Of a stretch of DNA of 64,000 bases, positions 15,692 through 62,024 are shown in pieces. Within the stretch, counting starts at the first letter, position 1, and each line of letters starts with the position of its first letter. The stretch covers positions 202,938 to 266,937 of the forward strand of contig JAHLLB010000001.1 in the NCBI GenBank assembly GCA_020444425.1, read 5' to 3'. The position numbers and the translations under genes were made by a program. The DNA comes from a bacterium (GTDB lineage: Bacteria > Electryoneota > Electryoneia > Electryoneales > Electryoneaceae). The notes beneath the pieces are model-generated. The model did no database searches, was not told where the DNA came from, and was given only the letters and a program-made list of their open reading frames with translations.

Positions 15692-16092
15692 AAGATAGTG
15701 CCCGTGTCAAAAAAACTTGCCGACGCGGACGTGAGGGGACATCTGTGGCACTGGCTGACGGTGGAGGTCGTGAGTTGCCAGATCGTTCCAGCAGGGATTC
15801 CCATCGCACAGAACAGCGTGTGCCACAGTTGTCCCCGATTTGCTAACAATCCGGGGACAAGTGAACGGTTTGACCGTCCGATCAACGAATCGTGACCCGG
15901 TAGCGATCCCGCCCGTCACATCGATACACCGGTCCCGATCCGTTCACATGTCCCCTCCCGGTTTGGTTTACCTGCGGATAAGCCCTGCTGGCGGAGCCAT
16001 CAGGGGCACGTTGGACGGACCTCATTCACCGGACGGATCCCACCATACCAACGGACAACCCGCGATAGCCGCCGATACACACCGGCGAACGA

Positions 16093-16761: not shown

Positions 16762-16796
16762 TCACAGGCAGCTGTCGTTGAAACGGCTTTTCATCC

Positions 16797-16864
16797 CGGA
16801 CTGAAGTCCGAGGACGTGGGTACGGTGAAACCTTGTATCTCAACCAATCCCGGGCTGAAGCCCG
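16797..16864. repeat. Paired palindromic modules (B' at 16797..16810, A' at 16851..16864)
   Basis: CGGACTGAAGTCCG and CGGGCTGAAGCCCG, centre-to-centre 54 bp. Confidence 0.9.
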
Positions 16865-16930
16865 AGGGCATGCCGGTCCTGCTCCGAGCGGCGCTGGATT
16901 ATTGATCCAAAACCAGAATCTCAAGCCCCT

Positions 16931-24580: not shown

Positions 24581-25822
24581 CTACCGTCCGCCGAGATCCG
24601 GCTTACGGCTCAGCCCAAGTGTGTAGCCAAGGAACAGCCCCATCGCAATCATGATCTCGCCGTCCAGCAGGTAGCACTGGGTCAACCCGGCGATCACCAA
24701 CCCGCCGAAGCCGAGCACTCCCCCCTGTGCCAGCAGGGACGGCAGGTCGCCGTGATCCGGCGTCAGCCAGAACAGGCGTACGCCGAGCACAACCACACTT
24801 CCGACCACCAGCAGCATCAGGATCAAGCCCGGATAACCGCTGACCGACAGCAACCAGAGTGGGTCGCTGTGCGGGTGTGCGAGGGAGACGAAATCGTGGT
24901 TGGGATCAACGCGTTGCTCTGCCTGTGTCCGCCACTGCCCCGGCCCGACACCGGTAACCGGGTTCTCCTGTCCCATCTCCAGCGACGCCTGCCACATCAG
25001 CACCCGGTCCTGCTCGCTGTGGGTGGACAGATTCGCGGCGTCCAGGATGCGGGTACGGAAACCATCGGAAAATGTGAACAGCCCGGCGATCAGCACCACT
25101 CCGGCGATCAGCGAAATGATCGCGACCTTCTTGTTGCGGGTAAGCAGGAACAGGACCAGCATCCCCGCAAGTCCCATCCACGGGCCACGCCGGAACGCGA
25201 GCACGACCGACAACAGGATGATCACCATCCCGGCCCACGCCCAGAACGCCTGCGCCTTGCGTTGTTTCACCGCCCACGGCAGCAACGCGAGGAAGAACAG
25301 CATCTGCATCCCGGCGAAGGTCAACGCCATGTTGAGCAGGCCGACCGGCAGGTAGAACGGGACGACCTCGTCGGGCATCGTCTCGATGAACTGGCCGTAG
25401 AGGAAATCGGTGCCGGTGAAGTATTGCACGATCCCGTTCAGGGCGCTGAACACACCTGCAATCATCAACGCCGGAATCAGCCAACGGATCGCGCCGTGTT
25501 GCTGAACAAGGTGGTAGGCGGCGTAGAATCCGAGCAATGCGACGAGAAACTTGGTCTGTAGAAAGTTCAGGCTGTCCATTGGATCCGGTGAGGCGATGGC
25601 AGCGATCACCAGCCACAGCAGCAGCGCGGCGATCAGGTAGTGCGTCGGAGTGAGCTTGCTGCGTGGTGTCCACCCGTTGAACAAGCCGATCACAGCGACG
25701 AGGAAGCCGATGCCGGCGAACACCTGCGCAAGGAAAATCCCGGTGACAATCGAGAACGCGAACGCCGCCAGCCATGCGGCGGTGAGCCAGGGTGTTTTCG
25801 CGGAGTGTGCTTTGGCAGTCAT
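24581..25822 (-). CDS. O-antigen ligase family membrane protein
   Basis: Multi-TM protein with Wzy_C-like region (FRRGPWMGLAGMLVLFLLTRNKK ... ENPVTGVGPGQWRTQAEQRV...HPHSDPLWLLSVSGYPGLILMLL). Start uncertain (MTAKAHSAKTP). Confidence 0.85.
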   Translation of the reverse strand: MTAKAHSAKTPWLTAAWLAAFAFSIVTGIFLAQVFAGIGFLVAVIGLFNGWTPRSKLTPTHYLIAALLLWLVIAAIASPDPMDSLNFLQTKFLVALLGFYAAYHLVQQHGAIRWLIPALMIAGVFSALNGIVQYFTGTDFLYGQFIETMPDEVVPFYLPVGLLNMALTFAGMQMLFFLALLPWAVKQRKAQAFWAWAGMVIILLSVVLAFRRGPWMGLAGMLVLFLLTRNKKVAIISLIAGVVLIAGLFTFSDGFRTRILDAANLSTHSEQDRVLMWQASLEMGQENPVTGVGPGQWRTQAEQRVDPNHDFVSLAHPHSDPLWLLSVSGYPGLILMLLVVGSVVVLGVRLFWLTPDHGDLPSLLAQGGVLGFGGLVIAGLTQCYLLDGEIMIAMGLFLGYTLGLSRKPDLGGR

Positions 25823-25886
25823 AGGTCGCTCGGACGGTTTCAACAGTTGCGCGCCAATATAGCACCTAAGACACACCTATTGCCCT

Positions 25887-26077
25887 CGGGCTTTAGCCCG
25901 GGATAACCCGTCGTCCAAGCATCCACCGCACCCATGCCCTCGGACTTCAGTCCGGGACAGCCTACCGTCCAAGAAAAATGACTTATAAGTCGTTCAATCT
26001 TCTCCAACCCCGGACTGAAGTCCGAGGACGTAAATACTCGGTCACATACAGTTCATTCGATCCCGGGCTAAAGCCCG
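25887..26077. repeat. Symmetric palindrome array A-B-B'-A' between divergent genes
   Basis: CGGGCTTTAGCCCG (25887..25900), CGGACTTCAGTCCG (25941..25954), CGGACTGAAGTCCG (26011..26024), CGGGCTAAAGCCCG (26064..26077), with central palindrome GACTTATAAGTC (25980..25991). Confidence 0.95.
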
Positions 26078-26243
26078 AGGGCATGTCGTGCCAACCTTTT
26101 CGACAATAGATGTGTGTGACTCAATAGCAGGCAGGTATGTCGACCAATCGTCCGGCTCCGGTGCGTGTGTGACCGGCACGCGTTGCCGTGATCCGCTCTC
26201 GCCCGTACCTTGTCGCGAAATCGTCTCACAGATCGCGTGAACC

Positions 26244-27419
26244 ATGGCCGACAACCGTTGCCGCATCCTCATTTTCACCCAGAACGACTGGTTCTTCCAC
26301 CTGCACTTTCTCGCGTTGGGGCAGGCGTTGGCGGACACCGGCGCGGAGGTGTCGCTGGCGTGCCTGGTGGACGAACACGGCGAACGGCTGGAAGCGGCGG
26401 GTTTGCGTGTGCTCGCACTCAGCAGCCTCGATGTGCGCAGCCTCGGGCTGAAAGCACAGGCGAAAACGGTGGTCGAGCTGGTGCGGCTGATCCGGCGCGA
26501 ACAGCCGGATATGGTGCTGACCATCTCGCCGAAACCGGCGGTATTGGGCTCATTTGCGGCAAAACTGGCGGGGGTGCCGTCGATTCTGAGCCTGATGACC
26601 GGGCTCGGCTTCCTGTTCGCTGGCGAAAACGAGCGATTACAGACACTGCGGCGGGTAGTCCTCGGCGCGTTGAAGTGGGCGCATACTGGCGCCGGCAGCC
26701 GCATCCTGTTTCAGAATTCCATGGATCGGGAGTTGTTGATCAAGTCGGGCGTGATCCCGGGAAGCAAGGCGCCGCTGGTCGGCGGAGTCGGCACGGACCT
26801 TGACAAATTCAAACCGGGCCCGCGCAAGAATGAGGTTCCGGTGATTGTCTTCGGCGCACGAATGATCCGTGACAAGGGCGTGCTCGATTTGGTCGAGGCG
26901 GCGCACATCCTGCATGAGCAAGGGTTGAGATTCCGAGTCCTGCTCTGTGGCGATCCCGACCCCGGCAACCCGAACTCGTTGACGACGGACGAGCTGGTCG
27001 AGATCCACGAGGAACGGTTCGTTGACTGGCTCGGGCATGTCAGCGATATCGAGCGAATCCTCGCCGGCGCGGACATTGCCTGCCTCCCCACCTACTACCG
27101 CGAGGGAATGCCGAAATTCCTGCTCGACAGCGCGGCGGCGGGGCTACCGTTGGTGACGACAAACGCGCCCGGCTGCACGGACGTCGTGACCCACGGCGAG
27201 AACGGCCTGATTGTGCCGCAACGCAGCCCGGTGGCGTTGGCGGATGCGCTGCGGCAACTGATCGTGGATCGTGATCGGCGTCAGGCGATGGGCCGTGCCA
27301 GCCGCAAGCGCGCGGAAGCGGAATTTTCGGCGGACGCATTCGTCGAACGCGTCTTCGCTGTGTTCGACGACGCGGCGGTCGCCGCGGGCCGTCCCGGCTG
27401 CGTCTTCTCCACCCGGTAG
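26244..27419 (+). CDS. GT-B fold glycosyltransferase (family 4-like)
   Basis: 391 aa: RCRILIFTQNDWFFHLHFLALGQALADTGAEVSLAC...; DIACLPTYYREGMPKFLLDSAAAGLPLVTTNAPGCTDVVTHGENGLIVP. Confidence 0.88.
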   Translation: MADNRCRILIFTQNDWFFHLHFLALGQALADTGAEVSLACLVDEHGERLEAAGLRVLALSSLDVRSLGLKAQAKTVVELVRLIRREQPDMVLTISPKPAVLGSFAAKLAGVPSILSLMTGLGFLFAGENERLQTLRRVVLGALKWAHTGAGSRILFQNSMDRELLIKSGVIPGSKAPLVGGVGTDLDKFKPGPRKNEVPVIVFGARMIRDKGVLDLVEAAHILHEQGLRFRVLLCGDPDPGNPNSLTTDELVEIHEERFVDWLGHVSDIERILAGADIACLPTYYREGMPKFLLDSAAAGLPLVTTNAPGCTDVVTHGENGLIVPQRSPVALADALRQLIVDRDRRQAMGRASRKRAEAEFSADAFVERVFAVFDDAAVAAGRPGCVFSTR

Positions 27420-40914: not shown

Positions 40915-41077
40915 TCTCCGTGATGTTCCCGAACTCCGCCGGAGCGGAACGGTATCCTGGTTAACTTACACGTCTGAGCCCGCCATCCCAAACGGTTTGA
41001 CGGAGCCATCCACCCTCTACCCTGCCTCTCTCTTGCAGTCGTCTCACGTGTCACAAGTGCTTCTTCACAAATGCCCT

Positions 41078-41291
41078 CGGGCTTTAGCCCGGGATTTGCT
41101 GGAACTCACAAACTTCACCGCACTCGACGACCTCGGACTTCAGTCCGGGATGATCCTTTTCTCAAACTACCACCGAACCTCATGCCCTCGGGCTTTAGCC
41201 CGGGATTTGCTGGAACTCACAAACTTCACCGCACTCGACGACCTCGGACTTCAGTCCGGGATGATCCGCGTTTGCAAGCAAACACGGGCAC
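41078..41291. repeat. Tandem 111-bp duplication of the A-B palindrome pair plus adjacent GGGATGATCCGCG hairpin
   Basis: A at 41078 and 41189 (CGGGCTTTAGCCCG); B at 41134 and 41245 (CGGACTTCAGTCCG). Identical spacer tttgctggaactcacaaacttcaccgcactcgacgac in both copies. Confidence 0.95.
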
Positions 41292-44014: not shown

Positions 44015-44114
44015 CCCGACCAGCTTGCTGGTCGGGATTATCCGCTGTTCACCGTGCCCCTGATGGCTGTGCCAGCAGGGATTATCCGCGTCCGCAAGCG
44101 GACACGGGCACAAT

Positions 44115-61887: not shown

Positions 61888-61912
61888 ACATCTTCTCTAG
61901 TGATCATGCCCT

Positions 61913-61979
61913 CGGACTTTAGTCCGGGATCACCAACGGTGCAAGGAACCAAGGTATTCATGCCTCGGACTTCAGTCCG
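61913..61979. repeat. Paired palindromic modules
   Basis: CGGACTTTAGTCCG (61913..61926) and CGGACTTCAGTCCG (61966..61979), centre spacing 53 bp. Confidence 0.9.
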
Positions 61980-62024
61980 AGTTTTCACTGTCCTGTGCCG
62001 AAATCCGGGGGTCTTTTGTTTTTC

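Follow-up and report, generated by a model that had tools for sequence, protein, structure and literature searches.

A symmetric palindrome array between an O-antigen ligase gene and a glycosyltransferase gene as a probable pair of facing REP doublets from a genome-specific repeat family

We analyzed a stretch of 64,000 nucleotides (hereafter the window, whose positions are used below) from a bacterial genome of 4.48 Mb in 74 contigs. Between two divergently transcribed genes of this window lie four 14-bp palindromes, here called A, B, B', and A', which form two units in opposite orientation. In the description of units, G and A stand for the two types of REP stem and the arrowheads give their orientation. 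The features of the locus are the following.

24581-25822, minus strand: left neighbour, the gene of an O-antigen ligase (Wzy_C) that probably starts at 25822 and whose longest ORF extends to 25876
25879-25958, plus strand: REP doublet unit 1 (G>A>), with tag ATTGC, CCTCGGGCTTTAGCCCGGGAT, a 33-nt spacer, and CCTCGGACTTCAGTCCGGGAC; spacing 54
25887-25900, plus strand: palindrome A, CGGGCTTTAGCCCG, first REP of unit 1
25941-25954, plus strand: palindrome B, CGGACTTCAGTCCG, second REP of unit 1
25959-26006, no strand: inter-unit gap of 48 bp, not common to other facing arrays (gaps of 6-52 bp)
25980-25991, no strand: GACTTATAAGTC palindrome in the inter-unit gap, centre 25985.5
26007-26085, minus strand: REP doublet unit 2 (A<G<), on the minus strand with tag CATGC, CCTCGGGCTTTAGCCCGGGAT, spacer, and CCTCGGACTTCAGTCCGGGGT; spacing 53
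26011-26024, minus strand: palindrome B', second REP of unit 2
26064-26077, minus strand: palindrome A', first REP of unit 2
26244-27419, plus strand: group 1 glycosyltransferase, right neighbour

The four palindromes match exactly the positions and centres given in the initial annotation, which had also reported nearly coincident midpoints of A/A' and B/B' (we too obtain 25982.0 and 25982.5) and a perfect palindrome close to them, namely GACTTATAAGTC. The arms are longer than first noted: A/A' is a perfect 24-nt inverted repeat (25881-25904 / 26060-26083) and B/B' a perfect 19-nt one (25938-25956 / 26009-26027). A and B are also related to each other, as a 39-nt direct repeat with 79% identity. 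Both flanking genes had been named correctly, but the array does not fill the space between them, as the two units and their gap (25879-26085) take up about 207 bp, while the likely gene starts, at 25822 and 26244, enclose 421 bp.

A nested cruciform had been suggested, and a nested fold is indeed predicted. Whichever strand is taken, the whole array folds into a nested hairpin (RNA: -103 and -125 kcal/mol, z of -12.0 and -10.9; DNA: z of -11.0), which is to be expected of perfect inverted repeats in general. A single unit gives two separate hairpins instead of one, each REP being a short GC hairpin, and the doublets fold barely better than their shuffles (z of about -1.2 to -1.5).

The palindromes of the array are not chance occurrences, since CGGRCTNNAGYCCG, with one mismatch allowed, matches the window 13 times, compared with 0.96 +/- 0.94 times in shuffled sequence, and the relaxed palindrome occurs 222 times in the genome against 17 times for the reversed control pattern. 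Strict oriented matches number 168 genome-wide (85 + 83). We fetched 66 stretches around REP copies, on which the array and spacing statistics rest, and scanned them with the oriented consensus CCTCGGRCTTYAGYCCGGGAT, allowing up to 4 mismatches. They contain 187 REPs, only 11 of which are isolated. The family comprises about 170-190 REP copies, mostly in units of about 80 bp at about 70 genome sites (76 arrays).

In a typical unit, two REPs point the same way at a distance of 54 (or 53) bp and enclose a spacer that is conserved in part. The spacing is 54 in 67 of the 91 doublets and 53 in a further 17. The unit is polar: its first REP is usually CGGGCTTCAGCCCG, with a G stem and the tag NTGC, and its second is usually CGGACTTCAGTCCG, with an A stem and the tag ACGN. 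NTGC accompanies 75 of 89 first REPs versus 19 of 98 downstream ones, and ACGN 72 of 98 downstream REPs versus 8 of 89 first ones. The order of the stems is not strict, as the 98 neighbouring pairs include 54 G>A>, 22 GG, 14 AA, and 8 AG. The consensus unit reads CATGC-CCTCGGGCTTCAGCCCGGGAT-(33-nt spacer, ...GTCAAGCAACCACCGCACCCACGC)-CCTCGGACTTCAGTCCGGGAT. Conservation reaches about 2 bits per site in the REPs, falls below 0.3 just beyond the 5' border, and is low past the 3' border. The 3' flank carries a weak echo of the spacer (Wilcoxon p = 0.003 versus the 5' flank), so the true mobile unit may be longer than the doublet, or some doublets may be cut-down remnants of longer arrays. Within 250 bp, REP neighbours are direct in 103 cases, facing in 8, and back-to-back in none; neighbours are mostly direct in two other REP families of the genus too. 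The window holds further units of the family.

16793-16867, minus strand: one unit, A<G<, spacing 54
41075-41262, plus strand: two tandem units, G>A>G>A>, spacings 56, 55, and 56
61910-61983, plus strand: one unit, A>A>, spacing 53

The array between the ligase and glycosyltransferase genes reads G>A> and then A<G<. Two polar doublets that face each other produce the module order A-B-B'-A', and their near-equal spacings (54 and 53) bring the midpoints within 0.5 bp of each other. The symmetry, which the initial annotation had regarded as an architecture in its own right, is therefore a by-product of this arrangement. Its exact order was found once; the orders G>A>G<G<G<, G>A>G<G<, G>G<A<, and A>A>A<A< were seen in further facing arrays, and the inner gaps of the eight facing junctions are 6, 25, 29, 34, 35, 35, 48, and 52 bp. 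Random module order and spacing elsewhere in the genome had been named as the sign of an accidental symmetry: module order does vary in composite arrays, whereas the spacing within units is very regular. The central GACTTATAAGTC is absent from every other fetched array and is probably incidental. The excess of facing over back-to-back junctions (8 to 0 within 250 bp, two-sided p = 0.008) recurs in the congeneric genome G001 (3 to 0; pooled 11 to 0, p = 0.001).

To place the arrays relative to genes, we used a simple codon-based gene caller written for the purpose. None of the 76 arrays overlaps a called gene, and the 54 arrays with both neighbours called lie between tandem (36), convergent (13), or divergent genes (5). 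The divergent ligase/glycosyltransferase pair is conserved in G001, G003, and G005, and the window array is absent from the orthologous gaps of all three. The G001 gap has a REP of the GTTTGCTTGCAAAC family instead (G001:C41:19888-19911), and that of G003 has no REP of this kind. The window array is thus very probably an insertion and not a conserved regulator, since the congeneric gap lacks it and carries a REP of another family. Whichever REP family is active in a species, its copies thus seem to insert into gaps of this kind.

These observations bear on the proposal that the array acts on both promoters, and on a reading in which a dimeric protein binds it as a symmetric operator or cruciform dedicated to coordinating the two divergent promoters. 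The position between divergent genes, the strong nested fold on either strand, and the central palindrome would all suit such an element. Action on both promoters is nevertheless unsupported, and we consider a dedicated operator very improbable, because the same units occur at about 70 unrelated sites, mostly between tandem or convergent genes, because the exact order and the central palindrome are each unique to this array among those fetched, because the conservation at orthologous promoters expected of an operator is missing in G001, G003, and G005, and because the ligase/glycosyltransferase gap contains no sigma-70-like promoter.

A role in RNA-level punctuation, with hairpins under selection for stopping or stabilising transcripts, as proposed for enterobacterial REPs, fits the intergenic location of the arrays, the prevalence of tandem or convergent neighbours, and the short GC hairpin formed by every REP. 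Against it, the array region contains no U-tract terminator, the orientation of arrays relative to genes (about 19:10, by hand count) shows no significant bias, the window array lies upstream of both its neighbours, and the doublets fold only marginally better than shuffles. This role, which can coexist with mobility of the element, seems unlikely as an explanation of the array. The lengths of the repeat and spacer (a 24-nt palindromic repeat and a 30-nt spacer) also resemble those of a CRISPR or another repeat-spacer array. This reading has a negligible probability and is refuted by spacer conservation, the spacers being homologous copies of one consensus; in addition, the arrays mostly have 2 units at about 70 sites, the repeats alternate between G and A types, and the linked gene encodes a REP-associated tyrosine transposase (RAYT).

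That gene is one of seven Y1_Tnp genes found. The initial annotation had advised a search for a RAYT (TnpA-REP) transposase gene, and one is present, bracketed by facing units like those of the window array. A second RAYT has its own REP family, TGCCCCTGATGGCTCTGCCAGCAGGG, with 105 copies, two of them in the window.

L074:1964-2503: RAYT gene, 179 aa, bracketed by REP units at 1871-1949 and 2517-2596
L090:1588-2121 (G000:C31): second RAYT gene, associated with TGCCCCTGATGGCTCTGCCAGCAGGG
15983-16008 of the window, minus strand: TGCCCCTGATGGCTCTGCCAGCAGGG copy
44055-44080 of the window, plus strand: TGCCCCTGATGGCTCTGCCAGCAGGG copy

The L074 RAYT gene lies between two units that face each other, its start 14 bp from the G>A> one and its end 13 bp from the G<G< one. 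The protein scores 84.6 bits against NF047646 (REP_Tyr_transpos), above the cut-off of 80, and its HxH and YxHxNP motifs are invariant in 17 relatives. The best named relatives of the RAYT come from Candidatus Electryonea MAGs. The search of the PDB with the single sequence gave no match, and the family profile matched E. coli TnpArep (4er8, E = 6.6e-11). With HUH and Tyr motifs in the protein and REPs of the dispersed family on both sides of the gene, the L074 RAYT and its facing units are a REPtron. The REP-like character that this advice in the annotation implied for the palindromes is thereby borne out: they are REP elements of a dispersed family with a RAYT gene in the genome.

At L090, the TGCCCCTGATGGCTCTGCCAGCAGGG REPs form direct arrays upstream of the gene, and downstream of it their direction is reversed. 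Within the same family, the nearest RAYT identified (L123 in G003, G003:C81, 44% identity) is flanked by direct GCTTGCTTGCAAGC arrays at 44-49 bp that are inverted across the gene. Repeated palindromes lie near 39 of the 77 RAYT loci examined, inverted across the gene in 36 of these 39. One locus considered as a direct-doublet relative, L125, shows alternating orientation once its flanks are included and was left out of the count.

The main REP family is specific to one genome among those searched with exact patterns, since it had no match in 84,980 named species genomes and was absent from 60 of 60 relatives. Rfam gave only sub-threshold chance matches. Very likely, the window array corresponds to two insertions of a species-specific non-autonomous REP doublet of about 80 bp, or to one insertion and an inverted second copy, between two divergent genes for surface polysaccharides. 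The family was probably spread by the REP transposase encoded elsewhere in the genome. Movement of the unit is inferred, as neither a pair of empty and filled sites nor a duplicated target turned up at base level. The RAYT, an HUH/Tyr single-strand nuclease, would recognise the hairpins in single-stranded DNA, cut beside the tags, and copy or move the unit. Any effect on the neighbouring genes, through 5'-leader hairpins or a target for gyrase or the like, would be secondary.

IS200/IS605 elements carry two subterminal hairpins that are both read on one strand and have adjacent guide tetranucleotides. By analogy with these one-direction elements, the first and second hairpins of the doublet may act as its left and right ends. 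The window family resembles IS200/IS605 and its miniature derivatives in having two hairpins on the same strand with adjacent tetranucleotides; unlike them, it has a REP-type enzyme and many arrays and gives no sign of strand-specific excision or of a target. A more tentative proposal, which we regard as possible but less probable than not, is that the two REPs of the polar direct doublet have become the ends of a minimal transposon of the single-strand type, NTGC and G stem on the left and ACGN and A stem on the right, which a RAYT moves in trans. Such an element would be intermediate between IS200/IS605 miniatures and REPINs, and its layout would be a general one among REP families of this bacterial family.

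The window family has many intergenic copies of an imperfect palindrome of 20-50 nt, as do REP elements, and lacks the known 5' tags of these, GT[AG]G or CGTC, its own being neither GTAG nor GTGG. We file it as an atypical REP rather than a canonical GTAG REP, because some RAYT classes have been described with REPs that lack the GT[AG]G consensus (PMC6006769). Like the REPINs of Pseudomonas, it consists of short dispersed intergenic REP doublets that look like the replicating unit, and its cognate RAYT has these REPs on its flanks (Bertels and Rainey 2011, PMC3116915). REPIN doublets are however inverted (93% of those of SBW25) and form one long hairpin, whereas the neighbours counted here are mostly direct and the doublet forms two hairpins, its tags differ by position, and its period is fixed at 54 bp. 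BIMEs are built from REPs together with inverted REPs (PMC8266576), and the E. coli REPtron has, as here, an HUH-Tyr transposase gene (TnpAREP) bracketed by REPs (PMC8266576, PMC6006769), but BIMEs alternate the two orientations with GTAG, in contrast to NTGC/ACGN in the window family. GTAG- and CGTC-tagged REPs and TIRtrons share with it heterodimers, tagged palindromes, an intergenic bias, and, in some dimers, conserved spacers, yet their dimers are sorted as head-to-head or tail-to-tail (Di Nocera 2013, PMC3733652), whereas ours are head-to-tail. Literature searches limited to open papers yielded no description of a direct polar doublet with NTGC/ACGN tags. As REPINs and BIMEs pair their REPs in inverted orientation and the known tags differ, the direct polar doublet and its tags mark a variant of a known mobile-repeat class.

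What looked like a designed regulatory palindrome can thus very probably be traced to the insertion of mobile repeats, and the genome adds a REP/RAYT pair with direct, polar doublets and non-GTAG tags. Should the doublet truly be the moving unit, RAYT-driven spread can do without inverted pairing, a point relevant to the field's still open question of REP replication.

Many contigs of the genome (G000; e.g., C2, C3, C5, C7, C9, C28, C29, and also C37, C46, C52, C54, C56, C63, and C72) start or end at most a few hundred bases away from a REP array, and the REP copy number is therefore probably underestimated. At L050:1545-1913, five near-identical direct G-type REPs stand at exact 53-bp steps, and after them come an A REP and a facing pair, so that tandem growth was probably recent there. 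The unit at 16793-16867 of the window and that at L081:1513-1587 share near-identical sequence over about 30 nt on each side, which makes duplication of a longer segment probable. The L123 RAYT is followed by six direct copies of the GCTTGCAAGC palindrome at exact 49-bp steps, and the ligase/glycosyltransferase gap of G001 (L151, G001:C41) contains about seven 19-bp tandem repeats, ACACGTCATCCTGATTAAT. A third palindrome family, GCCCGTGTTTGCTTGCAAACGCGG, for which no RAYT of its own was identified, is present at 41270-41283 of the window and has 26 copies in the genome; together with a GCTTGC variant, it has 80 copies in the congeneric G001.
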